Shown one piece after another: positions 17,191-39,468 of a stretch of 40,878 nt of DNA. This DNA comes from a virus, in the IMG/VR virus record IMGVR_UViG_3300031539_007568, positions 1-40,878 of that record, one strand, 5' to 3'. The stretch's first letter is position 1, and the number at the start of each line of letters is the position of its first letter. Under the pieces are notes generated by a model that ran no database searches, was not told the DNA's origin, and saw only the letters and a list, made by a program, of their open reading frames with translations. The translations under genes were made by a program, and so were the position numbers.

Positions 17191-18507
17191 ATGAGCCAAA
17201 TTAAAGTTTTAGTAGTCCCTTCAGACCGTAGTGGTGTTTCGATGTTTAGATCGGTTGATCCACATTTAAAATTACAAGAGTTATTCCCTAAAGAGTTTTT
17301 TGTTGATATTGTAACAGCCGGAACTGATACTCTTAATTGGGATGATGACAATTATTTAAAACAATTTAATATTGTACATTTCCATAGAACTATTAATACT
17401 ATTGTTAATGGCCAGTTACAACCTGTTTACGGTGATGCAGCAAAAGTTATTTTTGATAAACTTAAAAAAATGGGTATTACAACTATCATGGATATTGACG
17501 ATTATTGGATGCCAACTCATGAACACCCAGCACACGCAATATTAAAACAATCTAAAATTGATGATTTAATTAAATCTAATATTAAAATTGTTGATTGGGT
17601 TATGACTACAACTAAAGTTTTTGCTGATGAAATTAGAAAAATTAATAAAAATGTTGTCGTTATACCAAATTCTATAGATCCGTCACAAGAACAATTCCAA
17701 CCTAAAGATATTAAAAGTGATAAATTTAGAGTTGGTTGGTTAGGTGGTTCTTCTCATCTACACGATTTAGGTATTATAAAACAAGGTTTAAATACTTGGA
17801 TGAATGGTGAAGGTAAAGATGATACACAATTAGTACTTTGTGGATTTGATTTAAGAGGTAATATTACGGAAACCAATCCACAAACTGGTGAACAAAGAAC
17901 AAGAAAAATTTTACCTATTGAAAGTGTTTGGTGTCGTTATGAAGAAATGTTTACTAATAACTACGGAATACTTTCTCCAGAATATAAAAAACATCTTTTA
18001 AAATATAATCGAGAAAGTGATGGTAACTTTGACGATTCTAACGAATCTTATCGTAGAGTTTGGACTAAACCTATTACAACTTATGCGTCAAACTACAACT
18101 TATTTGATGTTTCTTTAGCACCAATTAAAGAACACATTTTTAACAAATGTAAGTCACAGTTAAAAGTTATTGAGGCAGGATTTCATAAAAAAGCTTTAAT
18201 AGCACAGAATTTTGGTCCTTATACTATTGATTTAGTCAATGTAATTGAGTATGGTGGTAAAATAAATGAGAATGGTAACGCTATCCTTATTGATTCAGTT
18301 AAGAATCATAAAGACTGGTTAAAGGCTATTAAATTTTTACATAAAAACCCCGATATGATTAAAAATATGGGTGAAAATTTATACAATACAGTTAACAGTA
18401 AGTATCATATTGATATCGTTACTAAAAGTAGGTCTGAATTTTATATGTCACTCGTAAATGAGAAAAAAAGAGAAACAAAAGAAATTGTTGAACAATTAAG
18501 TAGTTAA
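17191..18507 (+). CDS. GT-B glycosyltransferase, GT4-like (438 aa)
   Basis: The N-terminal half contains a SGVSMFRSVDPHLKL segment, a short DIDDYW element and a strand leading into VIPNSIDP, typical of the linker of GT4 enzymes. The C-terminal Rossmann half begins KFRVGWLGGSSHLHD and ends with the donor-site pattern SQLKVIEAGFHKKALIAQ. The E-x7-E motif is only partly kept. The enzyme should transfer a nucleotide-activated sugar; donor and acceptor are unknown. It is the first gene after the terminator, and lies apart from the main glycan island, next to exonuclease and dUTPase genes, which suggests a core phage function such as modifying DNA or virion protein. Confidence 0.8.
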   Translation: MSQIKVLVVPSDRSGVSMFRSVDPHLKLQELFPKEFFVDIVTAGTDTLNWDDDNYLKQFNIVHFHRTINTIVNGQLQPVYGDAAKVIFDKLKKMGITTIMDIDDYWMPTHEHPAHAILKQSKIDDLIKSNIKIVDWVMTTTKVFADEIRKINKNVVVIPNSIDPSQEQFQPKDIKSDKFRVGWLGGSSHLHDLGIIKQGLNTWMNGEGKDDTQLVLCGFDLRGNITETNPQTGEQRTRKILPIESVWCRYEEMFTNNYGILSPEYKKHLLKYNRESDGNFDDSNESYRRVWTKPITTYASNYNLFDVSLAPIKEHIFNKCKSQLKVIEAGFHKKALIAQNFGPYTIDLVNVIEYGGKINENGNAILIDSVKNHKDWLKAIKFLHKNPDMIKNMGENLYNTVNSKYHIDIVTKSRSEFYMSLVNEKKRETKEIVEQLSS

Positions 18508-18510
18508 AAA

Positions 18511-19239
18511 ATGAAAATGAGTAAGGTACCACAAGAGAATAATTTTGATGAAAACAAATTATTATTTCTTGAGATAGCCACGGTTTCACACGAAAAATTC
18601 TATTCTGATTTAGAGAAAAATAATCCTACTATAGCAAAGATATTTGATGATAGTAGGTTTTCTCTTGCAGAAAGATTTCCTGATTTTAAATCTGGTATTG
18701 AAGAAAATAAAATAGATTCTAAATTTCTATATGAAAAATGTGCAGGAATTTATCCAGAATTTGGTAAAATCGTTTGTGTGAGTCTAGGGGCTTTAGATTC
18801 TAAGGGTGAAATTAAAATCACCACATTTACTGGTAGTGAAAGAGAGATACTTTTAAAAACTAGAACCGTTCTAAATACGGCAGCTTCAAAATATACCCTT
18901 TGTGGGCATAATATAAAAAGTTTTGATTTACCTTACTTAGGTAAAAGATACTTAATCAACGGTTTAAGACCACCCTCATTACTCCCAACACACGAAACTA
19001 AACCTTGGGAAATAAAAGCAATAGATACAAGAGATATTTGGACTTTTAGTGGATTTAAAAGTTTTAGTTCATTACATTTAATAGCCAACTTAATGGATAT
19101 TGAAGTTACTTCATATATTAAAGGTGAGGATGTTAGTAAACTTTTTTGGAATGGTGAACTAGATAAAGTAATAGAGTTTTGTGAGTCTGAAATAAAAATA
19201 ACAATAGAAATTATAAAAAAATACAATTCTTATGAGTAA
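18511..19239 (+). CDS. 3'-5' exonuclease-like protein (PolB-exonuclease family) with altered catalytic residues
   Basis: The fold is that of the predicted 3'-5' exonucleases related to the PolB proofreading domain. Exo II is intact (CGHNIKSFDLPYLG, Asp139), and IDTRDIWTFSG matches the family's middle block. Exo I, normally FLDIETV, reads FLEIATV: the Asp is Glu21 and the Glu is Ala23. Exo III, normally CxxD, reads CESE (Glu227). Three of four metal ligands are therefore changed, two of them conservatively. It may be inactive, slow, or a structural or regulatory protein. It overlaps dUTPase by 8 nt, so both belong to a nucleotide/DNA maintenance group. Family call is good, activity doubtful. 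Confidence 0.75.
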   Translation: MKMSKVPQENNFDENKLLFLEIATVSHEKFYSDLEKNNPTIAKIFDDSRFSLAERFPDFKSGIEENKIDSKFLYEKCAGIYPEFGKIVCVSLGALDSKGEIKITTFTGSEREILLKTRTVLNTAASKYTLCGHNIKSFDLPYLGKRYLINGLRPPSLLPTHETKPWEIKAIDTRDIWTFSGFKSFSSLHLIANLMDIEVTSYIKGEDVSKLFWNGELDKVIEFCESEIKITIEIIKKYNSYE

Positions 19240-19849
19240 TGATATGAATGAATATATTAGGGAATTAAAACAATTAAAATCCTTAAATCTTTTACCACCA
19301 GATGAGATGGAAGAGTTAGATAGCTTAATTACGATGATGGAAAGTTCTGATATTCTTGGGCTAACCCAAGAAAATGATTACAGTAAATACAAATTACCAA
19401 TAAAATTTGTTAATAACTCCCGTAATGAAGATCCAACTTGGGCAAAAGAGGGAGATTCGGGTTTTGATTTAAGAGCTGAATTATTTGAAGTTGGTGGTAC
19501 ATTAACACTTAGACCATTCGAAAGAACTTTAATTCCAACAGGACTTTATTTTGAGTTGCCTAACGGTTATGAATTACAAATTAGACCACGTAGTGGTCAT
19601 TCATTTAAAACAGGTCTTATGGCTATTCTAGGCACTGTTGATACGGGTTATCGTGGTGAGGTTAAAGTTATCATGATTAACCTTAGTGATAAAGAACAAA
19701 TTATTGAACAGGGTGAAAGAGTGGCACAGGGTGTAGTTGCCCCAAGAGTTAGTGGTGATTTTGGTACAATGGTTAAATTAGAATCTGTTAAGGAGTTATC
19801 TAATTCTGAAAGAGGTGTAGGTGGTTTCGGATCAACAGGTAAAAAATAA
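19232..19849 (+). CDS. dut: dUTPase (dUTP diphosphatase, trimeric type)
   Basis: All five motifs of the trimeric dUTPases are present: I DSGFDLRA (75-82), II RPRSG (118-122), III GTVDTGYRGE (134-143), IV GERVAQGVV (161-169), V RGVGGFGSTG (194-203). It hydrolyses dUTP to dUMP and diphosphate, keeping uracil out of phage DNA and feeding dTMP synthesis. The first 55 residues form a helical extension (MNEYIRELKQLKSLNL) not needed for catalysis, making it longer than the usual 140-150 aa. Motif II is RPRSGHS where RPRSGLA is usual. It overlaps the preceding exonuclease-like gene. Confidence 0.95.
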   Translation: MSNDMNEYIRELKQLKSLNLLPPDEMEELDSLITMMESSDILGLTQENDYSKYKLPIKFVNNSRNEDPTWAKEGDSGFDLRAELFEVGGTLTLRPFERTLIPTGLYFELPNGYELQIRPRSGHSFKTGLMAILGTVDTGYRGEVKVIMINLSDKEQIIEQGERVAQGVVAPRVSGDFGTMVKLESVKELSNSERGVGGFGSTGKK

Positions 19850-19850
19850 T

Positions 19851-20342
19851 ATGTCAGTAGTAGCCGTAAAAATAGAAAAAAATAAAATTGTTATAGGTGC
19901 TGATAGCATCTTAGTAACTGGTCATACCCAAGAAAAAGATAAATTAGCTAAACTATTCCAAAATGAATGGGGTGTGGTTGGTGATGTTGGTGAAGCTCAA
20001 GAAGGGGCTTTATTCCAAATTTTTTCTAAAACAAGGAAACCTAGAGAGTCTAGTGTTGAAGCTATAACAGAATTTATGTTTGATTTTTTCTCTTGGAAGA
20101 AAGAGAAAACTGAAAGCACAGAATTAATTAATAGTTACATTATTGTCTTTAATGGTAAGGCCTTTTTAGTTGAGGGATTTTATGTTAAAGAAATAAAAGA
20201 TTATACAGCAATTGGAGCCGGTATGGATTTCGCTTTGGCATCACTATACTTAGGTTCTTCAGTACAAGATGCAATTAAAACTTCTTGTCACCTATCGATT
20301 TATTGTGAAGAACCTATTAATATAATTGAAATTAAAAAATAA
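19851..20342 (+). CDS. Proteasome/HslV-type Ntn-hydrolase with Ser nucleophile (163 aa)
   Basis: I start it at the ATG at 19851 (MSVVAVKIEK). The pattern MSVVAVK...IVIGADS...DKLAKLF...WGVVGDVGEA matches the first half of HslV and proteasome beta subunits. If Met1 is removed, Ser becomes residue 1, Asp18 becomes 17 and Lys34 becomes 33: exactly the spacing of the Thr1/Asp17/Lys33 catalytic set. The later part, TAIGAGMDFALASLYLGSS and EDPINI-type ending (CEEPINIIEI), also matches HslV. The length fits an HslV subunit. No HslU-type ATPase is in the window. It could be a protease that clears host proteins, or a modified subunit that enters or blocks host HslV. It is 1 nt after dut. Confidence 0.75.
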   Translation: MSVVAVKIEKNKIVIGADSILVTGHTQEKDKLAKLFQNEWGVVGDVGEAQEGALFQIFSKTRKPRESSVEAITEFMFDFFSWKKEKTESTELINSYIIVFNGKAFLVEGFYVKEIKDYTAIGAGMDFALASLYLGSSVQDAIKTSCHLSIYCEEPINIIEIKK

Positions 20343-20345
20343 AAT

Positions 20346-20522
20346 ATGGAAAATTTATATGATTATTATTTCCACTTCAACATTTATACTGAAGAATGGA
20401 ATGCCTTTCCTAGGGGTGAGAATTACATGGGAAATATTGAAAGGAAAAATACTGTCTATACTAATAGGGACTTAAATAAATTAATCGATAAGATTAAGGA
20501 ATTAGAGTTTCAATTAGTATGA
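20346..20522 (+). CDS. Small unknown protein (58 aa)
   Basis: The frame encodes MENLYDYYFHFNIYTEEWNA and ends in a charged helix (LNKLIDKIKELEF). It starts 3 nt after the Ntn-hydrolase stop in the usual aaatATG context and overlaps the next ATG by 4 nt (ATGA), so it is probably translated. No family is recognised. It is rich in aromatic residues (Tyr, Phe, Trp). It sits at the left border of the glycan island. Confidence 0.6.
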   Translation: MENLYDYYFHFNIYTEEWNAFPRGENYMGNIERKNTVYTNRDLNKLIDKIKELEFQLV

Positions 20523-22111
20523 TTAGTATAGTTTATTCTACCCGTAGTATTAATAAACAGTTTCAAGAACACATCAAAAAAACTATTGGTGTAAAAGATT
20601 ATGAAATTGTTGAAGTTATAAATAATGGAGATAAGTCCTTAACTGAGTGTTACAATTATGGTTTAGATAATACAAAAAACAAAATTGTAGTATTTTGTCA
20701 TGATGATATTATTTTAAAAGAGGGTTGGGGTAAGAAGATTATCAAACATTTTAATAATACTGATTATGGTATTATTGGTATGGCTGGCACTACTGATATG
20801 TCTGAAATTGGTCGTTGGTGGCAAGACTCAACTAAAATGGTTGGGATTGTTTCACATACAAATGAAGGTAAAACCTGGGAAAACAAATATTCAAATAATT
20901 TTAGTGATGAAGTAATTGAAACTGTCATGTTAGATGGCCTTTTTTTTGTTGTTGATAAAGATAAAATTAAAAATAGGTTTGATGAGTCTTTCAAAGGATT
21001 TCACTTTTACGATGTAGATTTCACGTTTAATAACCATTTAAGTGGTGTTAAGATTGGTGTTATGTTCGATATTAAAATCACCCATAAATCAATGGGGGCA
21101 ACTAATGATGAATGGGAAAAAAATCGTGAACAATTTATTGAAAAATATAAAGAAAAACTACCCCATAATATCAAACCAGAACTAAGGTTTGAAGTTAAGC
21201 CAAAAAATCTTAAAGAATACCCCAAACTTGGTATTATTATACCGACCAAAGGTAATGTTCAAATGTTAGAGGATTGTATAAACTCAATCTATAAACAAGG
21301 TGGTTACCCTGGAACTAGAATGGTAATCTATGTGGCTGATACAGGCTCAACACCTGAAGAGAAAGAAGAAATAAAAAATTTCTGTAACAGCCAACAATTT
21401 CTTTCAGATAGACATGGTGATGTTAGATTTATAGAATATGATTTCTATAATTTTGCTGTTATTAATAACGATATGGTGGAAAATCATGTAGAAAAGGATA
21501 CTGAAGTTTTATTATTCTGTAATAACGATATTAAACTTGTTAATAACGCAATAGAACGTATGATTGATGTTTATAACAAAAATAAAAAGAATGTCGGTAC
21601 TATCGGTGCACGTCTTCATTATGGTGATAACACAGTACAACACTCTGGTATTGTTATGTTTGTAAGACAAGATATGGGTGTTGGTATTAGTCACCACGGT
21701 TTAAGGTCTTACCATACTTATTACGATTCTTTAACCAGAAATGTTTTTGGTAATACTGGTGCATTCTTGATGATTAATAAAAAATTATTTGACGAAGTTG
21801 GTGGTTTTAATACAAACTATAGGGAGTGTTTTGAAGACGTTGAGTTAAATATTCAATGTATAAACCGTAACAAAGAGAATATTTTTGTTGGTGATGCTGT
21901 TTGTTACCACTATGAAAGTCAAACTAGAAATAAGAGTGAAGAAAAGCTTAAACGTGAGTCAGAAGACTACACAAAAAAGTTAATACCATTTATATTGAAC
22001 AATAAAAAAACATATAATTATTTTACAAATATTAAAGCTAAAGATTTTGAGTCTTTAATAGAGAGAAGTAGACAACAACAAATTGAAAAACAAAATGCGT
22101 TTAGGGTGTAG
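20519..22111 (+). CDS. Two-domain glycosyltransferase, GT2-type (530 aa)
   Basis: Two GT-A domains are joined. The first (1-215) begins ISIVYSTR and has the metal site FCHDDI; it ends with a block containing GFHFYDVDFTF. The second (from about 235) starts KLGIIIPTKGNVQMLEDCI, has LLFCNNDIKL as its DxD-like site and ends with the GT2 pattern FGNTGAFLMINKKLFDEVGGF plus ECFEDVELNIQ. Each domain should transfer one sugar, so the protein may add two residues in order, or a disaccharide repeat. The end overlaps the next gene by 17 nt. Domain call is sure, specificity unknown. Confidence 0.85.
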   Translation: MISIVYSTRSINKQFQEHIKKTIGVKDYEIVEVINNGDKSLTECYNYGLDNTKNKIVVFCHDDIILKEGWGKKIIKHFNNTDYGIIGMAGTTDMSEIGRWWQDSTKMVGIVSHTNEGKTWENKYSNNFSDEVIETVMLDGLFFVVDKDKIKNRFDESFKGFHFYDVDFTFNNHLSGVKIGVMFDIKITHKSMGATNDEWEKNREQFIEKYKEKLPHNIKPELRFEVKPKNLKEYPKLGIIIPTKGNVQMLEDCINSIYKQGGYPGTRMVIYVADTGSTPEEKEEIKNFCNSQQFLSDRHGDVRFIEYDFYNFAVINNDMVENHVEKDTEVLLFCNNDIKLVNNAIERMIDVYNKNKKNVGTIGARLHYGDNTVQHSGIVMFVRQDMGVGISHHGLRSYHTYYDSLTRNVFGNTGAFLMINKKLFDEVGGFNTNYRECFEDVELNIQCINRNKENIFVGDAVCYHYESQTRNKSEEKLKRESEDYTKKLIPFILNNKKTYNYFTNIKAKDFESLIERSRQQQIEKQNAFRV

Positions 22112-22877
22112 TTATAATTTATTTGATGGTGAGGAGTTATTAGAAGGTTCTATAAAACAAATAAGAAAACATGTAGACTACATAAGTGTTGTTTACCAAA
22201 CAGTTTCAAACTTTGGTAATCCTTGTGATTCGGGATTGGTTGTGCTACTAGAAAAATTAAAATCAGATGGACTGATAGATGAGATATTCGAATTCTCACC
22301 AAAAGTTAATAAAGGTGGACATTCTAATGAAATTCAAAAAAGAAATATAGGGTTATCTTTATCCCAAGGTGCCGGATGTACACACCATATGTCTATGGAT
22401 TCTGATGAGTATTACTTACCTTCGGAATTTGAATATCTTAAAAAAATCATAATTGATGGCGATTATGATTCTTCTTATTGCCAAATGCAAACATATTATA
22501 AAAGTTGGGAATATTCGTTAAATCCAGCTGAAGAATATTATGTTTCCCTAATATTCAAAATTAAATCAGACTCAACTTATGTCATAGGAGCACCAGCTCC
22601 AGTTTTGGTAGATCCTACAAGGAGGATGGTACCATCAGATAGACCTATAGTTTTAACAAGAGAACAAATTCAAATGCATCATGGTTCTTATATTAGAAAT
22701 AATGTAAGGGTAAAATTACAAAATAGTTCAGCGTCAGTTAATTTTAATAACGATATAGATAAAATTGTTAACCATTATAACACTTGGGAATACCCAAATA
22801 AAGTTTTATGGGGTGGAGCACCGAGTACATTACATAATGTTAAAAAAGTAGAAAACCTTTTTGAAAGTGATAAATAG
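22095..22877 (+). CDS. GT2-like glycosyltransferase (260 aa)
   Basis: The protein opens MRLGCSYNLFDGEELLEGSI, has a YISVVYQTVSN strand and the metal-binding site MSMDSDEYYLPSEF, where DSDE takes the DxD place. This is the layout of short GT2-like transferases and of the GT92-type domain. I use the ATG at 22095, not the in-frame TTG at 22083. It overlaps both neighbours by 17 nt. Its stop is TAG. Donor and acceptor unknown. Confidence 0.7.
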   Translation: MRLGCSYNLFDGEELLEGSIKQIRKHVDYISVVYQTVSNFGNPCDSGLVVLLEKLKSDGLIDEIFEFSPKVNKGGHSNEIQKRNIGLSLSQGAGCTHHMSMDSDEYYLPSEFEYLKKIIIDGDYDSSYCQMQTYYKSWEYSLNPAEEYYVSLIFKIKSDSTYVIGAPAPVLVDPTRRMVPSDRPIVLTREQIQMHHGSYIRNNVRVKLQNSSASVNFNNDIDKIVNHYNTWEYPNKVLWGGAPSTLHNVKKVENLFESDK

Positions 22878-23478
22878 TTTTTTTGATAAAAAATATTGTA
22901 TAAACCTAAAACACAGAAATGATAGGTGGGAAAATTGTAATAAACAATTTAAAAAATACGGTTTAGATGTGGAAAGATTTGATGCTATTAATGGTAATGA
23001 AGTCATACCTAAAGGTATTAATGGATTGTTACCTGGTGAGGTTGGTGTAATTCGTAGTAATTATAATGTTATTAAAAACGCTAAAGAAAACGGGTATAAA
23101 AACATTATCATTTTTGAGGATGATGTTGAGTTATGTGAAGATTTTACCAATAAATTTAACGAAATGTATAAGAAGGTTCCAAATGATTGGGGATTCTTAT
23201 ACATGGGTGGGAATCATGTTGGTGGTTTGGTACCTATAAATGAAAACGTGTCTCAAATAAAACACACATACGCCATCCACGCTATTTGTGTAAATGAAAG
23301 TGTTTTCGATCATATATTAGAACTACTACCTAATGAGAAAGAACAGGTAGATGTTACTTATGCTAAATTACAAAAAATATTCCCTAGTTATGTTTTTAGG
23401 CCACATTTAGCTTGGCAAAAAGATGGACATTCAGACATTCAAGGAGGATATCAGAACTATGATTTTTTAAAAAGATGA
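22861..23478 (+). CDS. GT25-family glycosyltransferase (LPS-type)
   Basis: The sequence DKKYCINLKHRNDRWENCNKQF, followed by FDAINGNEV, GEVGVIRSNYNVIKNA and NIIIFEDDVEL, is the hallmark order of GT25 enzymes, which add galactose or similar sugars to lipooligosaccharide or protein. The EDD site binds the metal and nucleotide sugar. No ATG is available: the frame starts at TTG (22861) or GTG (22867), both inside the end of the previous gene. A non-ATG start with a 17-nt overlap suggests translational coupling. Confidence 0.85.
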   Translation: MKVINSFFDKKYCINLKHRNDRWENCNKQFKKYGLDVERFDAINGNEVIPKGINGLLPGEVGVIRSNYNVIKNAKENGYKNIIIFEDDVELCEDFTNKFNEMYKKVPNDWGFLYMGGNHVGGLVPINENVSQIKHTYAIHAICVNESVFDHILELLPNEKEQVDVTYAKLQKIFPSYVFRPHLAWQKDGHSDIQGGYQNYDFLKR

Positions 23479-24284
23479 TAACAGTTTATTTACAAGGTGG
23501 GTTAGGTAATCAGATGTTTCAAATAGCTTCTACATATTCACACGCTAAAAATCACGGTGATGAAGCTGTATTTAATTTAAGTAACTCTCACACACCACAT
23601 CAAGGTGAAAACAGTTCAAAATACCAAGGTAATTTATTTAGGTTTAAAAATGACCCTAATGTCTATAACATATGTCATAGAACCTTTACACAACCAGGTC
23701 ATGCTTATTGTGAGTTACCTTATTTCCCTAATCTACAACTACAGGGTTTTTATCAATCAGAAAAATTCTTTATAAATCATAAACAAGAAGTTATTGACTT
23801 ATTTAGGTTAGGGTTAACCTCACCACCTTACAACCTTAGATGGGTTAAGATTAGTTCTGAATTAGAATCATTACGTAAGTCACTAAACAAACCAATCGTT
23901 TCTATCCATATTAGACGAGGTGATTACCTTAAATTTAAGGGAATTCATGACCCGTGTTCTGTTGAGTATTACAATGAGGCAATAACTTTAATGAAAGAGA
24001 AGATTGGTGATTTTCACACTTATTTTGTATCTGATGATATTGAATGGTGTAAGGCGGTTTTTGATGGTCGTGGTAGTTTCTCTAGTCATACAGATGAATT
24101 AGATGACCTAATATTATTAGTTAATGCAGACCACAATATTATAGCGAATAGTAGTTTTAGTTGGTGGGGGGCCTACTTAAATAATAACCCCAATAAGATT
24201 GTCATTGGACCTGAAAAATGGTTTGGCCCAAGAGGTCCACAAGATACCCAAGATGTAATACCTGAAAATTGGATTAAAATATAA
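23475..24284 (+). CDS. GT11-family fucosyltransferase-like protein (alpha-1,2 type)
   Basis: The opening MITVYLQGGLGNQMFQIAST, the IHIRRGDY motif (His145-Tyr151) and NSSFSWWGAYLN are the signatures of GT11 alpha-1,2-fucosyltransferases. The family uses GDP-L-fucose. No GDP-fucose synthesis genes are seen here, but a GDP-mannose 3,5-epimerase lies 11 kb downstream, so GDP-L-galactose is an alternative donor. The start overlaps the GT25 stop by 4 nt (ATGA). Length (269 aa) is normal. Confidence 0.88.
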   Translation: MITVYLQGGLGNQMFQIASTYSHAKNHGDEAVFNLSNSHTPHQGENSSKYQGNLFRFKNDPNVYNICHRTFTQPGHAYCELPYFPNLQLQGFYQSEKFFINHKQEVIDLFRLGLTSPPYNLRWVKISSELESLRKSLNKPIVSIHIRRGDYLKFKGIHDPCSVEYYNEAITLMKEKIGDFHTYFVSDDIEWCKAVFDGRGSFSSHTDELDDLILLVNADHNIIANSSFSWWGAYLNNNPNKIVIGPEKWFGPRGPQDTQDVIPENWIKI

Positions 24285-24288
24285 AAAT

Positions 24289-24909
24289 ATGTTATTAGAT
24301 TTAGTAAAATTAAAGGAGAAATATGACCTAAAAATTAAAGGTACTCTACACATTGGGGCCCACTTTGGTCAAGAGTATTCAACCTATGAAGAATTAGGTA
24401 TTAAAGATGTTATGTTTTTTGAACCATTACCTCACACATTCGAAACACTAAAACATAATGTTGGTGATAAGCAAGGTGTTAGTTTGGTTAATGCAGCCCT
24501 AGGTAATACTGTTGGTAAGATTGAGATGAACGTTGAATCAATTAACCAAGGTCAATCTAGTTCAATATTAGAACCGATAATCCATTTACAACAATACCCA
24601 CATATTAAATTTACAGATAAAATTACTGTAAATATCACAAAACTAGACACCTTTATTGAAGACCGTGAAAAGTACAATTTTATTAATATAGATGTACAAG
24701 GTTATGAATTAGAAGTTTTTAAAGGTGGTAGTGAATACTTAAACCATATTGATTACATTATGACAGAAGTTAATAGAGATGAGGTTTATGCTGGTTGTCC
24801 TAGAATTGAGGAATTAGATGATTACTTAGGTACCTATGGTTTTAAAAGGGTGGAAACTACTTGGGATGGTGGAACATGGGGTGATGCTTTTTATATTAAA
24901 GAAAAATGA
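24289..24909 (+). CDS. FkbM-type methyltransferase
   Basis: The N-terminal GTLHIGAHFGQEYSTYEELG is motif I of FkbM methyltransferases, with FFEPLPHTFETLK next and VNITKLDTFI then FINIDVQGYELEVFKGG, the family's central block. It should methylate a hydroxyl group, probably on a sugar, using S-adenosylmethionine. It overlaps the GT10-like gene by 4 nt, so the methylation may concern the same glycan. Confidence 0.85.
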   Translation: MLLDLVKLKEKYDLKIKGTLHIGAHFGQEYSTYEELGIKDVMFFEPLPHTFETLKHNVGDKQGVSLVNAALGNTVGKIEMNVESINQGQSSSILEPIIHLQQYPHIKFTDKITVNITKLDTFIEDREKYNFINIDVQGYELEVFKGGSEYLNHIDYIMTEVNRDEVYAGCPRIEELDDYLGTYGFKRVETTWDGGTWGDAFYIKEK

Positions 24910-25706
24910 AAGAAAAAATTGGATTAATAGGTGGTGATTTCCAACACGCATATTCTACAACATTATGGAAACACCCAACATATTTTGAATGGGATAAAGG
25001 TAATACTAATGATATTACTTTCTATGTTGATACTATGATACTACCTGGGTGTGGTGATACTACCAGTAAAAGAAAATTTGCTTGGTTAGTAGAATCTAGA
25101 ATGATAGTACCTACAGCAATAAAAGATATTAAAGAGAATTGGGAATTAATATCAAATTCTTATGAATATCTTTTTACACACCAAAAAGAAATATATGATT
25201 TAGCTGATAATTTTATTTATTTACCACCACACGGTCATTGGATTGAAAATCCACAGATATACCCAAAAAATAAATTAGTATCTATGATGAGTTCTAGTAA
25301 AAATATGGGTGGTGGTCATGGTTTTAGATTGGGGTGGGTTAAGAAACTACGTAATAAATTGGATTTATATGGTCGTGGTTTTAGGGAGGTACAAAAAAAA
25401 GAAGAAGCAATAGCTGATTATATGTTTTCTGTTACAATAGAAAATGATAAATATGAGACTTATTGGTCTGAAAAAATATTAGATTGTTTCGCCTGTGGTA
25501 CAATACCAGTATATCATGGTTCACCTGATATTGGTGAGTTTTTTAACATGGATGGTATTATTATTTTAACTGATGATTTTGATGTTACTCAATTAACACC
25601 AGAATTATATTATAGTAAAATTGATGCAATAAAAGATAATTTTAATAGAACATTAAAATATGGTATCATTGAGGATGACATATATAAAAAATATATAATT
25701 AAATAG
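24906..25706 (+). CDS. GT10-like fucosyltransferase (alpha-1,3/1,4 type)
   Basis: The C-terminal half has the GT10 signature: YMFSVTIENDKYETYWSEKILDC (broken in two in my reading as ADYMFSVTIEN and YETYWSEKILD), then ACGTIPVYHGSPDIGEFF. In GT10 this region binds GDP-L-fucose. The N-terminal half is diverged, with a KFAWLVESR segment typical of the family. GDP-L-galactose would be an alternative donor. Stop codon is TAG. Role in adding a terminal sugar is inferred. Confidence 0.7.
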   Translation: MKEKIGLIGGDFQHAYSTTLWKHPTYFEWDKGNTNDITFYVDTMILPGCGDTTSKRKFAWLVESRMIVPTAIKDIKENWELISNSYEYLFTHQKEIYDLADNFIYLPPHGHWIENPQIYPKNKLVSMMSSSKNMGGGHGFRLGWVKKLRNKLDLYGRGFREVQKKEEAIADYMFSVTIENDKYETYWSEKILDCFACGTIPVYHGSPDIGEFFNMDGIIILTDDFDVTQLTPELYYSKIDAIKDNFNRTLKYGIIEDDIYKKYIIK

Positions 25707-25709
25707 TAT

Positions 25710-26330
25710 ATGAAAAAATATAGTTATGATGGTAAAGAAGTTTCAAAAGAGTTATTTGAACAAAGTCACGAAAATTACAGAAAAAGTTTTCCTAACCACC
25801 CACTTAGTCATTTAAATGATTATAAACTTAATAGTGGAATATTAATTGAATCTGGTAGTTTATATGGTGATACAATTTATAGAGCATTAAATTTTGGATA
25901 TAAAAAAGTTATAAGTATTGAAATTAATAAAGAACTATTTCATTATGTTAGTAATAGATTTGAATCTGAAATTAAAGAGGGGATTGTAGAATTACATTTA
26001 GGTTCATCAATAGACGTATTACCTAAAATTCTTAAAAATATAAATGAGCCAGTAACTTTTTGGTTAGATGCCCATTTACATGGTAATAGTTTCGGTAAAG
26101 TACATGATGCACCTATAATACAAGAATTAGATATTATTAAAAGTCATAACATAAACAGTCATAATATTTTAGTTGATGATATGCGAATAATTAGAACACA
26201 AGGATGGGGAAGTGGAAATATGGAACAATTAGTAATTGATAAAGTTAAAAATATTAACGATAAGTATACTATAACATATGGACACGGTTTGGTAAATAAT
26301 GATGTTTTAATTGCCGAAAATAATGGATAA
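25710..26330 (+). CDS. SAM-dependent methyltransferase-like protein A (206 aa)
   Basis: The fold follows class I methyltransferases: GILIESGSLYGDTIYRAL (motif I), KVISIEINKEL, VTFWLDAHLHG and HNILVDDMRI. It shares this order with the protein at 27518-28108 (IETGTGEGE, SIEIYDE, FFLDAHFPG, FIIDDLRI), so the two are paralogues. The LDAH block is characteristic of this small family, whose substrates I do not know; sugar or surface-glycan methylation is inferred from the location. Confidence 0.6.
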   Translation: MKKYSYDGKEVSKELFEQSHENYRKSFPNHPLSHLNDYKLNSGILIESGSLYGDTIYRALNFGYKKVISIEINKELFHYVSNRFESEIKEGIVELHLGSSIDVLPKILKNINEPVTFWLDAHLHGNSFGKVHDAPIIQELDIIKSHNINSHNILVDDMRIIRTQGWGSGNMEQLVIDKVKNINDKYTITYGHGLVNNDVLIAENNG

Positions 26331-27030
26331 AATTTGTTTAATTAGACAACCAGCTGGTTTAGGTGATATACTATATACCCAAAAAATATATAAAGATTTA
26401 GTATCAAAAGGATATGAAGTTGTATGGCCAGTAATAGATGAATTTTTATGGTTAAATGATTATTTAGATACAAAATTTATTTCCATAAATAGTGATTTTC
26501 CATTAAAAGAGTATTATAATCAATTTTATGTTTTTAACTATAATAACGGTGATTTAAAATTTATACCATTACAAGATGCTGATAGATTGATTAGTGGTGA
26601 AAGAATTATGGCGTCTAAATACAAATTATATGGTATAGAATCTTCAGACTGGTCTAATTACTTGAAATTCAATAGAAATCATAAAAAAGAGGATAAACTT
26701 TTTTATGAGACACTAGGTTTAAAGGATGGTGAGGAGTATTGTTTAACACTTCGTAATTATGGGAGCCCACCAAATTTTTTAAAATTCCCAATTAACTATG
26801 TAGGTAACCTTAAAATTGTAGAGTTAGATTTTTATGAAGGATTCACATTATTTGATTGGTGTAAGGTTATTGAGAATGCTTCAGAAATGCATTTAATAGA
26901 TTCCTCAATAAATTATATAATTGATTTATTGACATTAAAAAGTGATAGACTATTCTTATACACTAGGAGACCTAATAACTTCTCCGAAATAGATTATATT
27001 TTTAAAACAAAATACACATTTGTAAGATGA
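26323..27030 (+). CDS. GT-B heptosyltransferase-like protein (GT9-like, 235 aa)
   Basis: The opening MDKICLIRQPAGLGDILYTQ is the pattern of GT9 and related GT-B enzymes, in which the loop after the first strand contacts the acceptor. The C-terminal half has IENASEMHLIDSSINYIIDLL, a diverged donor-site helix that in the family reads as the LvtnDsg..Hla block. At 235 aa it is short for GT9 (about 330). I use the ATG at 26323, not TTG at 26311. Both neighbours overlap it. Confidence 0.6.
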   Translation: MDKICLIRQPAGLGDILYTQKIYKDLVSKGYEVVWPVIDEFLWLNDYLDTKFISINSDFPLKEYYNQFYVFNYNNGDLKFIPLQDADRLISGERIMASKYKLYGIESSDWSNYLKFNRNHKKEDKLFYETLGLKDGEEYCLTLRNYGSPPNFLKFPINYVGNLKIVELDFYEGFTLFDWCKVIENASEMHLIDSSINYIIDLLTLKSDRLFLYTRRPNNFSEIDYIFKTKYTFVR

Positions 27031-27518
27031 TAGAAACAATAAGTTATAAAGGAAACGTATACCCAAAATTTCAAACATTAGGTAATGCGTCACAATTTGC
27101 CATACCGTACGCATTACATATTTGTAAAGGTGAGGGTTATGATATTGGTTGCATGAAAAAAGAGTGGTCATTCCCTGGATCTACACCAATAGATTTAAGT
27201 TTTGAAGATGATTATCACGCTTTAAATTTACCAAAAAAGGGGGTTGACTATATATTTTCAAGTCACTGTTTGGAACATATAGATGATTGGGTTGATACCA
27301 TGGATTATTGGTATGAAACCCTAAATAGTGGTGGTACATTATTTTTATATCTACCAGATTATTCACAAGTATATTGGAGACCTTGGAACAACAGGAAACA
27401 TAGAAATATGTTTAACCCACAAATAATAAAAGATTATATGGAAGATAGGGGTTATAAAAATATATTCGTTAGTGAAGTTGATTTAAATAATGCTTTTATG
27501 GTTATGGGGGAGAAATAA
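27027..27518 (+). CDS. SAM-dependent methyltransferase, type 11 (163 aa)
   Basis: GEGYDIGCMKKEW stands for motif I (E/DxGxG), VDYIFSSHCLEHIDDW for motif IV with the common LEH, and LNSGGTLFLYLPD for motif V. This is the core of methyltransferase domain 11 enzymes. Motif I is degenerate: DIGC in place of DvGcG. At 163 aa it is close to the minimal domain. Overlaps on both sides place it in the glycan operon, so sugar methylation is likely. Confidence 0.75.
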   Translation: MIETISYKGNVYPKFQTLGNASQFAIPYALHICKGEGYDIGCMKKEWSFPGSTPIDLSFEDDYHALNLPKKGVDYIFSSHCLEHIDDWVDTMDYWYETLNSGGTLFLYLPDYSQVYWRPWNNRKHRNMFNPQIIKDYMEDRGYKNIFVSEVDLNNAFMVMGEK

Positions 27519-28108
27519 TGGGTAGTATTAGAAGACATAAAGATTTTATAGAATCCATTATTTTTAAAAATAATTTAAAATACTACATTGAGACTGGGAC
27601 TGGTGAAGGTGAGTGTTTATCATATGCAAATACATTACCATTTAATAGATTATATTCTATAGAAATATATGATGAAATACATAAAAAGGCTGTAGAAAAA
27701 TTTTCACAATTTAATAATATCCACATAATGAAAGGTAATTCATATGAGGTGATACCTAGTATTTTAAAAAAAATAGATGGAAATGTTTTATTTTTTCTGG
27801 ACGCACATTTCCCAGGTGTGGATTTCCATTTTGAATCTTTTGGTTCTGAAAAAGATAAAGATAAAAACTTACCGTTAGAAAAAGAACTTAAAACAATTAT
27901 AGAAAACTTTGATACTAAAAATTCTGTATTCATAATAGATGATTTAAGAATATATGAAGACGGTCCTTATACTGGTGGTAATTGGCCTGATAGACATTTA
28001 TATGGTGGTGATAATATAAACTTTATCTACGATTTATTTAATAAAACACATAACATTGTAAAAGATTTTAATGACCAAGGTTATATAATATTAACACCAA
28101 AAACATAA
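27518..28108 (+). CDS. SAM-dependent methyltransferase-like protein B (196 aa)
   Basis: This is the paralogue of the 206-aa protein at 25710. YYIETGTGEGECLSYA is motif I, LYSIEIYDEIHKKA motif II, LFFLDAHFPG and FIIDDLRIYEDGP follow. The TGTGEGE motif here is a better SAM-binding loop than in its partner. One base of overlap joins it to the previous gene. Substrate unknown. Confidence 0.65.
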   Translation: MGSIRRHKDFIESIIFKNNLKYYIETGTGEGECLSYANTLPFNRLYSIEIYDEIHKKAVEKFSQFNNIHIMKGNSYEVIPSILKKIDGNVLFFLDAHFPGVDFHFESFGSEKDKDKNLPLEKELKTIIENFDTKNSVFIIDDLRIYEDGPYTGGNWPDRHLYGGDNINFIYDLFNKTHNIVKDFNDQGYIILTPKT

Positions 28109-28110
28109 GT

Positions 28111-28905
28111 ATGAAAATTTGTTTTAAAACTTGGGTCACCGACAATTATAGGGATATAATAGACATTGATAAATTAACTAATCAGTTAAAGTATTACCAC
28201 CCAGATATACCACATTTTATTTATGGTGATAAAGAAACAAATGAGGATAAAAGTAAATATCCGTGGATGTGGCCGGGGGTTATGATGCCTGTGTCAGCTA
28301 TGAGATATGCTGATGAATATGATTTAGTTATACATGTAGATGGTGATAGTACAATAGTGGGTCCATTAGATGAACTTATTGTTGGTGATTTTGATGTTGC
28401 TAGTGTTAGAAATAATCACTTTGGTGGTGGAGCTGGTATGGGTTCTATAATAACAATAGATGGTATTCCTTGGGATAAATTCCTAAATGTAGGTCTTAAC
28501 GCAACAAATGGTAAAGAATTTTTAAATGAATGGTTAGAAGGTTGTAAAAACGGTACTATTAATGGTAATTGGGATGATGAAAACAATGAACTTAATAGAC
28601 ATTTTTTTAAAGATAAATTTAAGAGTAAAATATTAGATGATGTTGGTACTGGGGTATCATATGGATTAACAAATGTGTTTGGTACTAATACACATTGGGA
28701 TAGTTGGAAAAATCTATATATGAAAGACGGTGAGGTATATCAACTTAACCCTTTGGGTGAGGAGGTAAAAGTAAAAGTATTACATATGGCAGGTGGTGGT
28801 CACGCTAAAAAAAATGTATTTAATGGTCAGAATATGAGACAATGGTTAAATAACTGGGTTAAACCAGAAGTTGCTGAACATATTAAAAAAATATCAAATG
28901 GGTAA
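28111..28905 (+). CDS. GT8-like glycosyltransferase (264 aa)
   Basis: DLVIHVDGDSTIVGPLDEL contains the DxD (DGD) metal site in the arrangement typical of GT8 and other GT-A hexosyltransferases. Near the C-terminus HMAGGGHAKKN resembles the conserved HxxG-x-KPW-type block of GT8. It begins MKICFKTWVTDNYRDI. It is the last transferase before the sugar-nucleotide genes. Confidence 0.65.
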   Translation: MKICFKTWVTDNYRDIIDIDKLTNQLKYYHPDIPHFIYGDKETNEDKSKYPWMWPGVMMPVSAMRYADEYDLVIHVDGDSTIVGPLDELIVGDFDVASVRNNHFGGGAGMGSIITIDGIPWDKFLNVGLNATNGKEFLNEWLEGCKNGTINGNWDDENNELNRHFFKDKFKSKILDDVGTGVSYGLTNVFGTNTHWDSWKNLYMKDGEVYQLNPLGEEVKVKVLHMAGGGHAKKNVFNGQNMRQWLNNWVKPEVAEHIKKISNG

Positions 28906-30217
28906 AAAAGAAGAAATTCTAAATTTAGTTTCAGAATATATAGAAGAAAAAAATAAAAATAAGGAATGGGTTGCTGGTAAGGATTGGGTTCATTATGCCG
29001 GTCCTTTTTTCGATGATAAAGAATATGTTAACTCAATAGGTTCTTTATTGGAGGGATGGCTTGTTTTAAACTCCAGTGGTACTAAATTCGAAAAAAAATT
29101 ATCAAAAATTTTTAATAAAAATTATGGTATTTTAACAAATAGTGGGTCAAGTGGTAACTTACTTATGATGGCGGCGTTAAAATCTAAGAGATTATTTAAT
29201 TTACCAGATGGTACAAAAGTGTTAACACCTATTGCTGGATTTCCCACAACCATTAACCCAATTTTTCAAAATAAATTTATACCAGTATTTGTTGATATAG
29301 AATTAGAAACTTTGAATTTAGATTTAAATAAAACAGAAGAATTACTTAAAAATGATTCAGAAATTAAAGTGATAACATTTGCGCATGTTTTAGGTAACCC
29401 ACCTAACATGGATAAAGTTATGGAATTAGTTGAGAAGTATGATTTAATACTTTTAGAAGATTGTTGTGATGCGTTAGGATCTACTTACGATGATAAACCA
29501 TTAGGTAGTTTTGGTAAAATGGCTTCATGTTCATTCTATCCGGCACATCATATAACTATGGGTGAGGGTGGTTTTGTCTGTATGAATGATATTGAAACTG
29601 AAAGGGTTGTTAGGAGTTTTAGAGATTGGGGTAGAGGTTGTTTTTGTGTAGGTAAAGCTAATGTACTTGAAAATGGTGTTTGTGGGTGTAGGTTTTCTAA
29701 TTGGTTACCATCATTACCTAATGAGATTTTTGATCATAAATATGTTTACGAAGAAATAGGTTATAACTTGAAACCAATAGAATTACAGGCCGCAATGGGA
29801 TTAGCTCAATTAGATAAATTAGAAGAAATTGGTATTTTGAGGAAACGAAATCATAAAAGACTATATGATATATTCAGTAAATATGAAAAATATTTTATAT
29901 TACCTAAAGCACAAGAAAAATCAAATCCAGATTGGTTTGCTTTCTCATTAACAGTTAAAGATGGGGTTAAATTTACTAGAGCGGAATTCTGTCAATTTTT
30001 AGAAGCAAATAAAATACAGACTAGACCTTATTTTGCGGGTAATATTATGTTACAACCAGCTTATACGGGTATGATGGATACTGAGAAAGTAATTAAAGAT
30101 TACCCAGTAGCAAGAAAAGTAACAACCGATACATTATTTTTAGGTTGTAGTCCCATAATAACAATAGAACAATTAGATTATGTAGAATCTATTGTTGATA
30201 AATTTTTTGATGAATGA
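28898..30217 (+). CDS. rfbH: CDP-4-keto-6-deoxy-D-glucose 3-dehydrase (E1, RfbH/DdhC-type)
   Basis: This DegT-fold enzyme removes the 3-hydroxyl of a 4-keto-6-deoxy sugar nucleotide using PMP and a [2Fe-2S] cluster. The lysine that holds PLP in aminotransferases is replaced by His: FYPAHHITMGEGG, His217. The cluster pattern of E1, as I recall it C-x57-C-x-C-x7-C, appears as Cys190-x57-Cys248-x-Cys250, with the last ligand probably Cys262 or Cys264 after a slightly longer spacer. GRGCFC and GYNLKPIELQAAMGLAQL also match E1. I use the ATG at 28898 (439 aa; about 437 is usual). The partner reductase E3 is not in this window. The enzyme opens the 3,6-dideoxyhexose pathway. Confidence 0.92.
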   Translation: MGKKEEILNLVSEYIEEKNKNKEWVAGKDWVHYAGPFFDDKEYVNSIGSLLEGWLVLNSSGTKFEKKLSKIFNKNYGILTNSGSSGNLLMMAALKSKRLFNLPDGTKVLTPIAGFPTTINPIFQNKFIPVFVDIELETLNLDLNKTEELLKNDSEIKVITFAHVLGNPPNMDKVMELVEKYDLILLEDCCDALGSTYDDKPLGSFGKMASCSFYPAHHITMGEGGFVCMNDIETERVVRSFRDWGRGCFCVGKANVLENGVCGCRFSNWLPSLPNEIFDHKYVYEEIGYNLKPIELQAAMGLAQLDKLEEIGILRKRNHKRLYDIFSKYEKYFILPKAQEKSNPDWFAFSLTVKDGVKFTRAEFCQFLEANKIQTRPYFAGNIMLQPAYTGMMDTEKVIKDYPVARKVTTDTLFLGCSPIITIEQLDYVESIVDKFFDE

Positions 30218-31158
30218 AAGTAGTATATATAACTGGTTGTTTAGGTTTTATAGGGTCATATATCACAAGACAATGTTTAGAATTGGGTTGGTATGTTAAA
30301 GGTATTGATAAAATCACTTATGCCGCCAATAGAAATTTGTTAACAGAATTTAATAAATTTGATAATTTCTCTTTTGTACATTGTGACATAAATGATTTAA
30401 AATTTCTATATGATTGTGATTATGTAATTAATACTGCAGCTGAAACACATGTGGGTAATAGTATATCTAGTAGTGATGAGTTTGTTAAATCTAATATTGA
30501 CGGTGTACATAATTTATTAGAATTAATTAAAACACATAGAGGTGAAAATGTTAATAAACCAATATTAATACATTTTAGTACTGATGAAGTTTATGGTGAT
30601 ATAGAAAATGGGGTACATACAGAAACACACCTACTCAAACCAAGTAATCCATATTCAGCAACAAAAGCTGCGGCTGATATGTTAGTTATGGCATGGGGTC
30701 GTACACATAAAGTACCATATATAATTGTTAGACCAACCAATAATTACGGCATTGGTCAGTACGTAGAAAAATTAATTCCTAAAACTTGTAAGTATTTGAA
30801 GTTAAATAAAAAAGTACCACTACATAATAATGGTACACCAGTAAGAACTTGGTTACACGCTCAAGATACATCAAATGCTATAATAAAAATAATTGAATCT
30901 GGTATTACTAATGAGATTTATAATATTTGTGGTGGGTTTGAATAGAGTAATTTAGATACAATAAAAAAAATACTTAAACTTAATCATATAAATGATATTG
31001 ATGCTTATGTGGATTTTTCATGTAGTAGACCAGGGCAGGATATTAGATATGCTTTAGATGATTCTAAATTAAGGAAATTAGGGTGGTCACCACAAAAAAT
31101 ATTTGATGAGGAGTTACCCCAAATAATAAGTTATTATAATAAAAATTTTATATGGTAA
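30214..31158 (+). pseudogene. Sugar-nucleotide 4,6-dehydratase interrupted by an in-frame TAG
   Basis: An extended SDR of the RmlB type: NAD-binding TGCLGFIGS (7-15), the catalytic STDEVYG (Thr123-Asp124-Glu125) and YSATK (Tyr147, Lys151). The TDE triad marks 4,6-dehydratases, which make the 4-keto-6-deoxy sugar that E1 needs. Codon 244 (30943-30945) is TAG. The same frame then continues for 70 codons as SNLDTIKKIL...CSRPGQDIRYALDDSKLRKLGWSP, the normal C-terminus of the family, and stops at TAA overlapping the next ATG by 7 nt, as other junctions here do. TAG ends at least five other genes in this window, so it is not fully reassigned. Choices: recent nonsense mutation, sequencing or assembly error, or readthrough. 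At 243 aa the short product would lack the C-terminal substrate domain. Confidence 0.8.
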
Positions 31159-32909
31159 AAATAAGTGATATAATAACCGAATTTTTAATTAAAAACAATA
31201 TTAAAGTTGTTTTCGGTATTATAGGTTCAGCTAACTCTCATATATATGATTCAATACACAAACAAGGAGATATAAAATTAATTTCAGTTCACCATGAACA
31301 AGCGGCTGTTATGGCTATGGGAGCTTATTATAGAACTACTGGTAATTTATCTGTAGCATTAGTTACTGCCGGTGGAGGATCTTCAAATGCCTTTACTGGT
31401 ATACTGTCTAATTGGGCCGATTCTATACCAGGTATTATAATTTCTGGACAAGAACAATCTTACTATATAGAACAATATGACGATATGAGAATGTATGGTA
31501 TTCAGGGTTATGATTCTGTTAAAACATATTCTAACCATACAAAACTATCTGTAAGAATTAATAAAGATAATCTATATAAAACTTTTCATGAGGCATTTAC
31601 TATAACACAAGAGGGTAGACCAGGTCCAGTATTTTTAGAAATACCGTTTGATGTACAAGGGCAAAAAATTATTGAGCAGCCAATAAAACCATACACTAAA
31701 ACTATAAATAATACTGAAAGTACTATAAATCACGTTACAGATATAATTAATCTACTTAATAAATCAAAAAGGCCATTAATATTAGGTGGTCATGGTGTTA
31801 AGTTATCTAAATCGGAAGTTATTTTTAAAAATTTTGTTGAAAGACACGGAATACCAACTATGTTGAGTTGGTCAGCGATAGATTTATTACCTAATGAAGA
31901 CCCAAATAATTTTGGAAAGTCTGGTGTACAAGGTCAAAGATCATCAAATTTTATTATCCAAAACTGTGATTTATTAATTGTATTTGGTAGTAGATTATCA
32001 TTATTACAAAGTGGATATTCTAGAGATGATTTTGCCCCAAATGCTAAAATAATTCATATAGATATTGACCCTAAAGAAACTAAAAAGTTTAATGGGTTAA
32101 ATATAAATCATGACGTTAGTTTAATCTTAGAAGAACTTAATAAGTCTAATGATATTAAAATAGAAATTAATGACTGGGTTACATATTGTAATACAATACG
32201 TAATAAATTCCCGTTAGTGATGCCAGAACATTTAAGTGATTCAAATAATTCATATACTTTTATTGATAAATTTTCAGGATTAGTTCCAGACAACTATACA
32301 ATAGTGACTGATATGGGTACGGCTTTGTTAAGTGGATTTTATGGATTTAAATTAAAACCCAATCAAAAAATGTTCACCTCACTTGGTTTGGGTGAAATGG
32401 GTTATGGTATCGCTGCCGCTGTTGGTGCTGGGTTTGGATCTAATCCAGTAATGTGTTTAAATTGTGATGGTGGTATGATGATGAACTTACAAGAACTACA
32501 AACTATTAAAACACATAACCTACCAGTTAAAATTGTTATCTTCAATAATGATGGGTACTTAATGATTAAACACACACAGAAGATGTTATTTGGTGACAAT
32601 AGAACATGTGTTGATAAAAATACAGGGGTAGAGTTACCGAATTATAAAAAAATAGCTTCAGCTTTTCAATATTCTTATTATACTGAAGATCAAATGGAAG
32701 AATTTTTTAAAGATGATAATCAAGCTATTATAGAAATTTTCATGAATCCAGAACAGGAATTTATACCAAAAGTTAAAGGTATTAAAAATTTAGATAATAC
32801 TATTACCGCTGGATTATTAGAAGAAATGTCACCACTATTACCAATAGAGGATATTGAATATTCCATGGAATCTAGGATTAATAAACGAAGTAGAAATATT
32901 ATAAGATGA
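31152..32909 (+). CDS. Thiamine diphosphate-dependent enzyme, YerE/acetolactate synthase-like (585 aa)
   Basis: Three domains are seen: an N-terminal pyrimidine-binding domain with the catalytic Glu49 (HHEQAAVMAMGAY), a middle domain, and the ThDP domain with CDGG...NND (Asp439, Asn466), where the first Gly of the usual GDG is Cys. This is the acetolactate synthase/pyruvate oxidase superfamily. In sugar clusters such enzymes, such as YerE for yersiniose, decarboxylate a 2-oxo acid and attach the acyl group to the 4-keto carbon of a deoxysugar nucleotide. Its place right after E1 and a dehydratase supports that role; plain branched amino-acid synthesis is less likely. The donor may be pyruvate or a longer 2-oxo acid made by the next genes. 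Confidence 0.8.
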   Translation: MVKISDIITEFLIKNNIKVVFGIIGSANSHIYDSIHKQGDIKLISVHHEQAAVMAMGAYYRTTGNLSVALVTAGGGSSNAFTGILSNWADSIPGIIISGQEQSYYIEQYDDMRMYGIQGYDSVKTYSNHTKLSVRINKDNLYKTFHEAFTITQEGRPGPVFLEIPFDVQGQKIIEQPIKPYTKTINNTESTINHVTDIINLLNKSKRPLILGGHGVKLSKSEVIFKNFVERHGIPTMLSWSAIDLLPNEDPNNFGKSGVQGQRSSNFIIQNCDLLIVFGSRLSLLQSGYSRDDFAPNAKIIHIDIDPKETKKFNGLNINHDVSLILEELNKSNDIKIEINDWVTYCNTIRNKFPLVMPEHLSDSNNSYTFIDKFSGLVPDNYTIVTDMGTALLSGFYGFKLKPNQKMFTSLGLGEMGYGIAAAVGAGFGSNPVMCLNCDGGMMMNLQELQTIKTHNLPVKIVIFNNDGYLMIKHTQKMLFGDNRTCVDKNTGVELPNYKKIASAFQYSYYTEDQMEEFFKDDNQAIIEIFMNPEQEFIPKVKGIKNLDNTITAGLLEEMSPLLPIEDIEYSMESRINKRSRNIIR

Positions 32910-33766
32910 AAATAAAAGCCGCCATTTTAGGTACTGGAAATATTGGTACTGATTTATTGATAAAGGTATTAAAAACAGATTTTATTGAATTAGTTGCCTT
33001 TGTAGGCCGTAGAGTTGATTCTGATGGTATGTTAGTTGCTAAAAAACATAATATAAACATATCAAATCTTGGTATAAATTATTTTATTGATAACCCAAAT
33101 TGTTGTGATGTTGTATATGATTGTACAAATGCGGCTGACGCTAAAATACATTCTAAAATATTTGAATCACAAAATATAAAAGTTATAGATTTAACACCAG
33201 CTAAGGTTGGTGATATGTGTGTTCCCGATATAAATAGTGAGATAATACTAACAGATAATAATGTAAATATGATTACGTGCGGTGGTCAAGCATCAATGCC
33301 TATGTTACATTTAATATCAAAACATTGTATTGGGACTGAATATATAGAAGTAGTTTCACAAATTGCCTCTAAAAGTGCCGGAATGGCGACAAGAATTAAT
33401 GTAGATAACTACATATATACAACACAAAAAGCTATAACAAAATTTACGGGATGTAATAATTGTAAAGTGATACTAAATTTAAATCCAGCTGAACCTTGTG
33501 TTGATATGCAAACAACAATTTTCATAAAAGCTAAAGAAATTAATTTTGATAACCTATTAGAAAGGGTGTTAGAAAAAATTGAGGAGTTAAGGGAATATAT
33601 ACCAAATTATGAATTAATATTACCACCAACATTAAATAGTAATGGTGTTATGGTTTTAAGTGTAAGGGTTAGAGGTGTTGGTGATTATCTACCAGAATAT
33701 GCGGGAAATTTAGATGTTATAAATTGTGCCGCAATTAAAATAACTGAAAAATTATTAGACAGATGA
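32906..33766 (+). CDS. Acylating acetaldehyde dehydrogenase (MhpF/BphJ type)
   Basis: NAD-binding GTGNIG (9-14), the catalytic Cys125 in TCGGQAS, SQIASKSAGMATR, and NLNPAEPCVDMQTT together define this family, which interconverts acetaldehyde, CoA and NAD+ with acetyl-CoA and NADH. It normally forms a complex with the aldolase encoded next door, passing the volatile aldehyde between active sites. The 4-nt overlap fits that pairing. In meta-cleavage pathways they degrade aromatics, but nothing else of such a pathway is here; running in reverse they would make acetaldehyde for aldol chain extension. Length (286 aa) is slightly below the usual 300-315. Confidence 0.88.
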   Translation: MKIKAAILGTGNIGTDLLIKVLKTDFIELVAFVGRRVDSDGMLVAKKHNINISNLGINYFIDNPNCCDVVYDCTNAADAKIHSKIFESQNIKVIDLTPAKVGDMCVPDINSEIILTDNNVNMITCGGQASMPMLHLISKHCIGTEYIEVVSQIASKSAGMATRINVDNYIYTTQKAITKFTGCNNCKVILNLNPAEPCVDMQTTIFIKAKEINFDNLLERVLEKIEELREYIPNYELILPPTLNSNGVMVLSVRVRGVGDYLPEYAGNLDVINCAAIKITEKLLDR

Positions 33767-39467: not shown

Positions 39468-39468
39468 A

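Follow-up and report, generated by a model that had tools for sequence, protein, structure and literature searches.

A predicted N-terminal-serine hydrolase of the proteasome-like superfamily encoded by a core gene of a phage lineage

Phage members of the proteasome-like superfamily, PPH and AAH, have already been published, and AAH has also been moved into Bacteroidetes by phages (PMC8665760). Many isolated phages carry genes annotated as 'peptidase HslV family'. ClpP and the Clp unfoldases are treated in a review of 224 jumbo phages that leaves HslV unmentioned, and we found no paper describing the function of a phage PPH, AAH or HslV-like protein. BPH has no known ATPase and was inert in peptidase assays (PMC5777263). 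In the proteasome, Ser129 and Asp166 protonate and position the amine of Thr1, and the T1S proteasome shows 40-45% lower activity, i.e. 55-60% is kept (PMC4792962). Why proteasomes use threonine, and what role the Ser129-Asp166 'second triad' plays, have so far been studied mainly with engineered mutants. The initial annotation of the locus described here regarded natural Ser1 members as unusual. This agrees with the wording 'highly unusual' in the literature, although precedents exist in BPH outside Betaproteobacteria, CodW and one Anbu (PMC5777263).

The window analysed in this study is a viral DNA stretch of 40,878 nucleotides (IMG/VR record IMGVR_UViG_3300031539_007568). The gene at 19851..20342 (+ strand) encodes a proteasome-like Ntn-hydrolase of 163 aa (MSVVAVKIEKNKIVIGADS...). 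Translation of the ORF supports the annotation's claim that, after removal of Met, Ser1, Asp17 and Lys33 occupy the catalytic positions of proteasome-type enzymes; their codons lie at 19854..19856, 19902..19904 and 19950..19952, respectively (all + strand), Ser1 being the predicted nucleophile. With an oxyanion glycine also in place, all these superfamily residues are present, and there is no propeptide. A GTG at 19821 opens a longer frame in the window; the 10-residue longer protein that would start there was ruled out by the upstream in-frame stops of relatives. Such a stop lies 0-4 codons 5' of the ATG in 15 of 21 relatives, hence the ATG is the start and Ser1 directly follows Met. Removal of this Met is predicted from the small second residue, as methionine aminopeptidase usually acts on Met-Ser.

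The window protein matched PHROG 1040, 'peptidase HslV family' (E=2.3e-17), as did all 16 clade members tested, whereas Pfam and NCBIfam gave nothing for the window protein. The NCBIfam acyl-CoA ligase and Pfam InvH matches to some members were weak and scattered and were judged to be chance. An AlphaFold2 model built with 16 branch sequences as input had a pLDDT of 90.4 and a pTM of 0.87. It predicts helices at residues 49-58, 69-86, 125-133 and 138-148, i.e. the two helix pairs on which ring contacts depend, and a chain that ends in strand 157-162, with no C-terminal H5 helix. The initial annotation had staked its assignment on an Ntn-hydrolase fold match, and the PDB matches of the predicted structure were all proteasome-type Ntn-hydrolases. 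The best was BPH 5ovt (Z 22.9, rmsd 1.7 over 161 residues), followed about 4 Z units below by HslV 4g4e (Z 18.8) and proteasome beta 6z46 (Z 18.7). The top matches by PDB sequence were designed helical repeats and were discarded as spurious, the alignments being helix-only. The PHROG match and the predicted fold together uphold the proposal of a proteasome/HslV-like Ntn-hydrolase with Ser1 in place of Thr1; the model confirms the alpha-beta-beta-alpha fold of a proteasome-type Ntn-hydrolase, and on the predicted structure the nearest fold is that of BPH rather than HslV.

Relatives forming the Ser1 branch were taken from IMG/VR at 42-83% identity. Ser1, Asp17 and Lys33 were invariant in the 19 branch members sampled, down to 42% identity; S2, D18 and K34 in precursor numbering were invariant in both family alignments, and two oxyanion-region glycines in the aligned Ser1-branch members. 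Pairwise dN was ~0.02-0.4 with dS near saturation, and dN/dS was ~0.1 in most pairs. The nucleophile is encoded by TCA in the window and by TCA, TCG, AGT or AGC among the members, never by a Thr codon. Since Thr (ACN) is one mutation away from either of these Ser codon sets, TCN and AGY, the serine appears to be held by selection and not by the inaccessibility of threonine. Among 18 sampled wider-family proteins from isolated phages, 17 have Thr1, and Ser1 was found only in Rhizobium phage RHEph10, which the tree places on a branch separate from the Ser1 clade, its deep nodes being weak. RHEph10 and a relative (L049, L075, L076) make up a second, separate Ser1 lineage, in which Ser129 and Asp166 are kept. 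A single origin of Ser1 across the sampled phages is thus unsupported, with the same reservation about the deep nodes.

The gene is embedded in a conserved neighbourhood. A dUTPase gene (19232..19849, + strand) lies immediately upstream, preceded by a syntenic 3'-5' exonuclease gene (18511..19239, + strand), and a glycosyltransferase gene (20519..22111, + strand) is the downstream syntenic neighbour; the order exonuclease-dUTPase-Ser1 enzyme is kept in relatives. Where the flank is long enough, nearly all close relatives retain the full local order, polB - small genes - glycosyltransferase - exonuclease - dUTPase - Ser1 enzyme - glycosyltransferase. In loci found independently via polB (at least 67% identity), the Ser1 gene directly follows the dUTPase gene in 11 of 11; the whole block is absent from three polB loci at 47-48% identity. 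The Ser1 enzyme belongs to the core gene set of this phage lineage and is not sporadic cargo.

Several other features of the window deserve mention. An ORF of ~58 codons (20346-20519) lies between the Ser1 gene and the downstream glycosyltransferase gene and overlaps the start of the latter. Many glycosyltransferase-like genes and several methyltransferase-like ORFs occupy 17191-28905 and 38388-40284, including a family 11 (fucosyltransferase-type) glycosyltransferase gene at 23475-24284; these genes likely serve a glycan coat or the modification of DNA or the host surface. A sugar-building cluster at 28892-36529 encodes RfbH (above the NCBIfam cut-off), an acetolactate-synthase-like TPP enzyme, an acetylating acetaldehyde dehydrogenase and a 4-hydroxy-2-oxovalerate aldolase (both above family cut-offs), and, after the aldolase, two NDP-sugar epimerases. 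The pair of RfbH and TPP enzyme recalls the synthesis of branched 3,6-dideoxyhexoses of the yersiniose type, which is unusual for a phage.

Relatives are also encoded in Bacteroidota. On one contig of a Bacteroidetes MAG, a relative with 43% identity lies next to a dUTPase gene and phage-like genes; no HslU above the cut-off was found in this MAG, nor another PHROG 1040 match, so that it has no HslV. On this phage-like contig (L077), an ORF of the FtsH-like AAA+ metalloprotease type (18691-20340) lies ~8 kb from the Ser1 gene. Among 395 genomes of the same phylum, one further true branch member was found, the rest being weak matches that, where read, were ordinary HslV. In the order of that member, a Ser1-branch gene is present in 3 of 114 genomes: two sit among ordinary chromosomal genes, and the third is on a short contig beside a gene for a secreted-type protein. 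No AAA+ neighbour was seen beside the chromosomal relatives. One genome has three separate genes, for a canonical HslV, for a Thr1 BPH that matches the solved BPH at E 7e-27, and for the Ser1 protein. The latter thus counts as a distinct paralogue and not as HslV or BPH. Phage and bacterial Ser1 members adjoin in the tree, and on sequence grounds the branch appears to be common to huge phages and three or four Bacteroidota genomes.

We hold, with slightly better than even confidence, that the gene encodes an HslU-independent N-terminal-serine peptidase of group I (compact, BPH/HslV-type), probably ring-forming, which acts on restricted polypeptide substrates. The computational basis of this reading is the fold, the conserved triad, purifying selection, the start site, core-gene synteny and the absence of HslU from the searched records. 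The following mechanism may be proposed: methionine aminopeptidase would expose the N-terminal serine as the nucleophile, Lys33, oriented by Asp17, would activate its hydroxyl, and the oxyanion hole would be provided by the Gly46 region. As both ring-contact helix pairs are predicted in the subunit, the most likely assembly is a homo-oligomeric, self-compartmentalising ring, single or double. The enzyme would presumably be expressed together with the replication and nucleotide genes of the phage and would act during replication, cutting a restricted set of polypeptides from the host or the phage. HslU would not be required: the enzyme may take unfolded substrates unaided, which has been proposed for BPH, or may receive its substrates from a different unfoldase, for which the phage ClpC is one candidate.

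The residues around the putative nucleophile bear on the kind of reaction to be expected. In an alignment with T. maritima HslV, GSG is replaced by GAG and ICIYTN by LSIYCE. The Ala of GAG (20217..20219, + strand) stands in for the proteasome Ser129 and the HslV GSG serine, while the LSIYCE segment (20292..20309, + strand) places Ser, Cys and Glu at the proteasome Asp166, Ser169 and Gly170 positions. This combination is found in 18 of the 19 Ser1-branch members, the exception being L043, which keeps Ser129. The Asp166 position is already changed in HslV (Cys in five of six HslV rows); loss of Asp166 alone was accordingly dropped as a special feature, and the distinctive coupled change is that of Ser1 with Ala129. 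A link between Ser1 and Cys169 was dropped as well, given that RHEph10 combines Ser1 and Cys169 yet keeps Asp166 and Ser129, and that a Thr1 BPH also has Cys169. Replacement of this second shell counts against the preferred reading, in that the enzyme might be only weakly active or catalyse a different reaction; the inertness of BPH in peptidase assays counts against it too.

As the main rival reading, it is conceivable, though not probable, that the protein is a specialised acyl-transfer or single-substrate processing enzyme, such as a connectase-like protein ligase or a maturation protease, and not a degradative peptidase. Changes in the shell that binds the amine would suit a single peptide better than general hydrolysis, and the coupling of Ser1 to Ala129 and to Ser/Cys/Glu at 166/169/170 under strong purifying selection is in line with such a role; furthermore, for degradation the large relatives are already equipped with ClpCP, and connectase shows that the fold can ligate (PMC8665760). 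However, HslV also lacks Asp166 and is nevertheless an active degradative protease, the predicted structure has no connectase-like helical insertion over the active site, and no substrate motif was found. In an extended form, to which we give similarly low credence, the Ser1 branch would be a separate unnamed subfamily in which Ser1 co-evolved with the lost Ser129-Asp166-Ser169 network towards a different Ntn chemistry (one-substrate processing or peptide ligation), common to huge phages and some Bacteroidota.

The partner of the enzyme was the other point raised by the initial annotation, which noted the lack of an HslU partner in the window and suggested that the protein might use the host ATPase, poison host HslV or act alone. 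The first observation was correct, as no AAA+ gene of the ClpA/B/C/X/HslU type is present in the 41-kb record. Neither in six large virus records (108-380 kb) nor in one Bacteroidetes MAG was HslU found above the cut-off, although the virus records may be fragments. Among the large related records, four (130-380 kb) encode both ClpP and a ClpC-like unfoldase; the ClpC tripeptide loop is VGF or VGY in the two copies read, and the Ser, His and Asp of ClpP are recognisable in the copy read. Giant phage relatives carrying both a ClpC-like unfoldase and ClpP are found at L078-L081 and L083-L087, the 380-kb record having two ClpP genes. The evidence does not favour a protein that uses or poisons host HslVU: HslU and HslV are both missing from the MAG that carries a relative, the three chromosomal relatives lie away from any hslU, and the large phage relatives own ClpC and ClpP.

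We judge it rather improbable that the protein is a peptidase subunit that degrades folded substrates with the help of an AAA+ unfoldase, be it host HslU or phage ClpC. Such a partnership would accord with the dependence of HslV and CodW on HslU (PMC5777263) and with the ClpC-like unfoldase of the large relatives, but the VGF-type loop of the latter fits the ClpP of the same phages and not HslV, HslU was above the cut-off in none of the seven records or genomes searched, and the chromosomal relatives lack an AAA+ neighbour. That the protein poisons host HslV, joining its assembly and thereby blocking it, is very unlikely: the shared fold and the altered second shell would permit it, but a triad kept invariant by purifying selection is unlike that of a dead decoy, the fold is closer to BPH than to HslV, fold matches to the latter showing ~15-20% identity, and the MAG with the phage-like relative has no HslV. 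Equally hard to credit is a catalytically dead remnant, which the second-shell replacements might suggest, against the retention of Ser1, Asp17 and Lys33 at 42-83% identity and the low dN/dS in most pairs.

The preferred reading of an HslU-independent peptidase concerns a group of proteins that looks undescribed, namely a discrete Ser1 branch with other active-site residues replaced. In the literature we found no description of a coherent Ser1 branch with a replaced second shell that is core in a lineage of huge phages and present in Bacteroidota chromosomes. It offers a natural experiment, in which a fixed Ser1 and a lost second network occur alongside Thr1 relatives, and which includes one genome that also holds HslV and BPH genes. 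In giant phages with ClpC and ClpP, the Ser1 enzyme would add a third proteolytic component, and it is a small protein on which the role of phage proteasome-like proteins can be addressed.

Among the described systems, BPH (PDB 5ovs/5ovt/5ovu) resembles the window protein as its best fold match and as a compact subunit without H5. Its sequence kinship is weak, with E values of 0.03-0.3 for the Ser1 branch (0.08 for the branch profile) against 7e-27 for a true BPH (G271); BPH forms a heptameric double ring, and the acidic pore loop that follows its H2 is long, whereas only ~8 residues are predicted here (H2 ends at 86 and the next strand starts at 95), and the BPH row of G271 reads Ser/Asp/Cys/Gly where the Ser1 branch has Ala/Ser/Cys/Glu. 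HslV/ClpQ, which forms a hexameric double ring that HslU activates, shares with the Ser1 protein the triad positions, the fold, the short pore loop and a changed Asp166 position, and CodW, the Bacillus HslV/ClpQ, also its natural Ser1. Unlike HslV, the Ser1 protein has no propeptide and has GAG for GSG, and the curated NCBIfam HslV models gave no family for the window protein (E 7e-4 for the best branch member). With no HslV model match, no HslU above the cut-off in the large relatives and no propeptide, the window protein is not an HslV orthologue. Anbu differs by its C-terminal H5 coiled-coil helix, which the Ser1 protein lacks. The phage proteins of PHROG 1040 (from Aeromonas, Vibrio, Klebsiella, Escherichia and Rhizobium phages) belong to the same PHROG family and conserve Asp17 and Lys33, but those from isolated phages mostly keep Ser129, Asp166 and Ser or Thr169, unlike the Ser1 branch. 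In Aeromonas phage 4L372XY (L047, 863-2259), two adjacent 'peptidase HslV family' genes are of different types, one of them encoding a 183-aa protein of the MTCI type with changed oxyanion glycine and second-shell residues. The Ser1 branch may fall inside the published AAH or CPH. PPH/AAH (Fuchs et al. 2021) are, like the Ser1 protein, phage-borne, of group I and with no AAA+ partner found (PMC8665760); PPH, however, is ~140 aa long and has no helix H2 (PMC8665760), whereas the protein described here has 163 aa and a predicted H2 of 18 residues (69-86).
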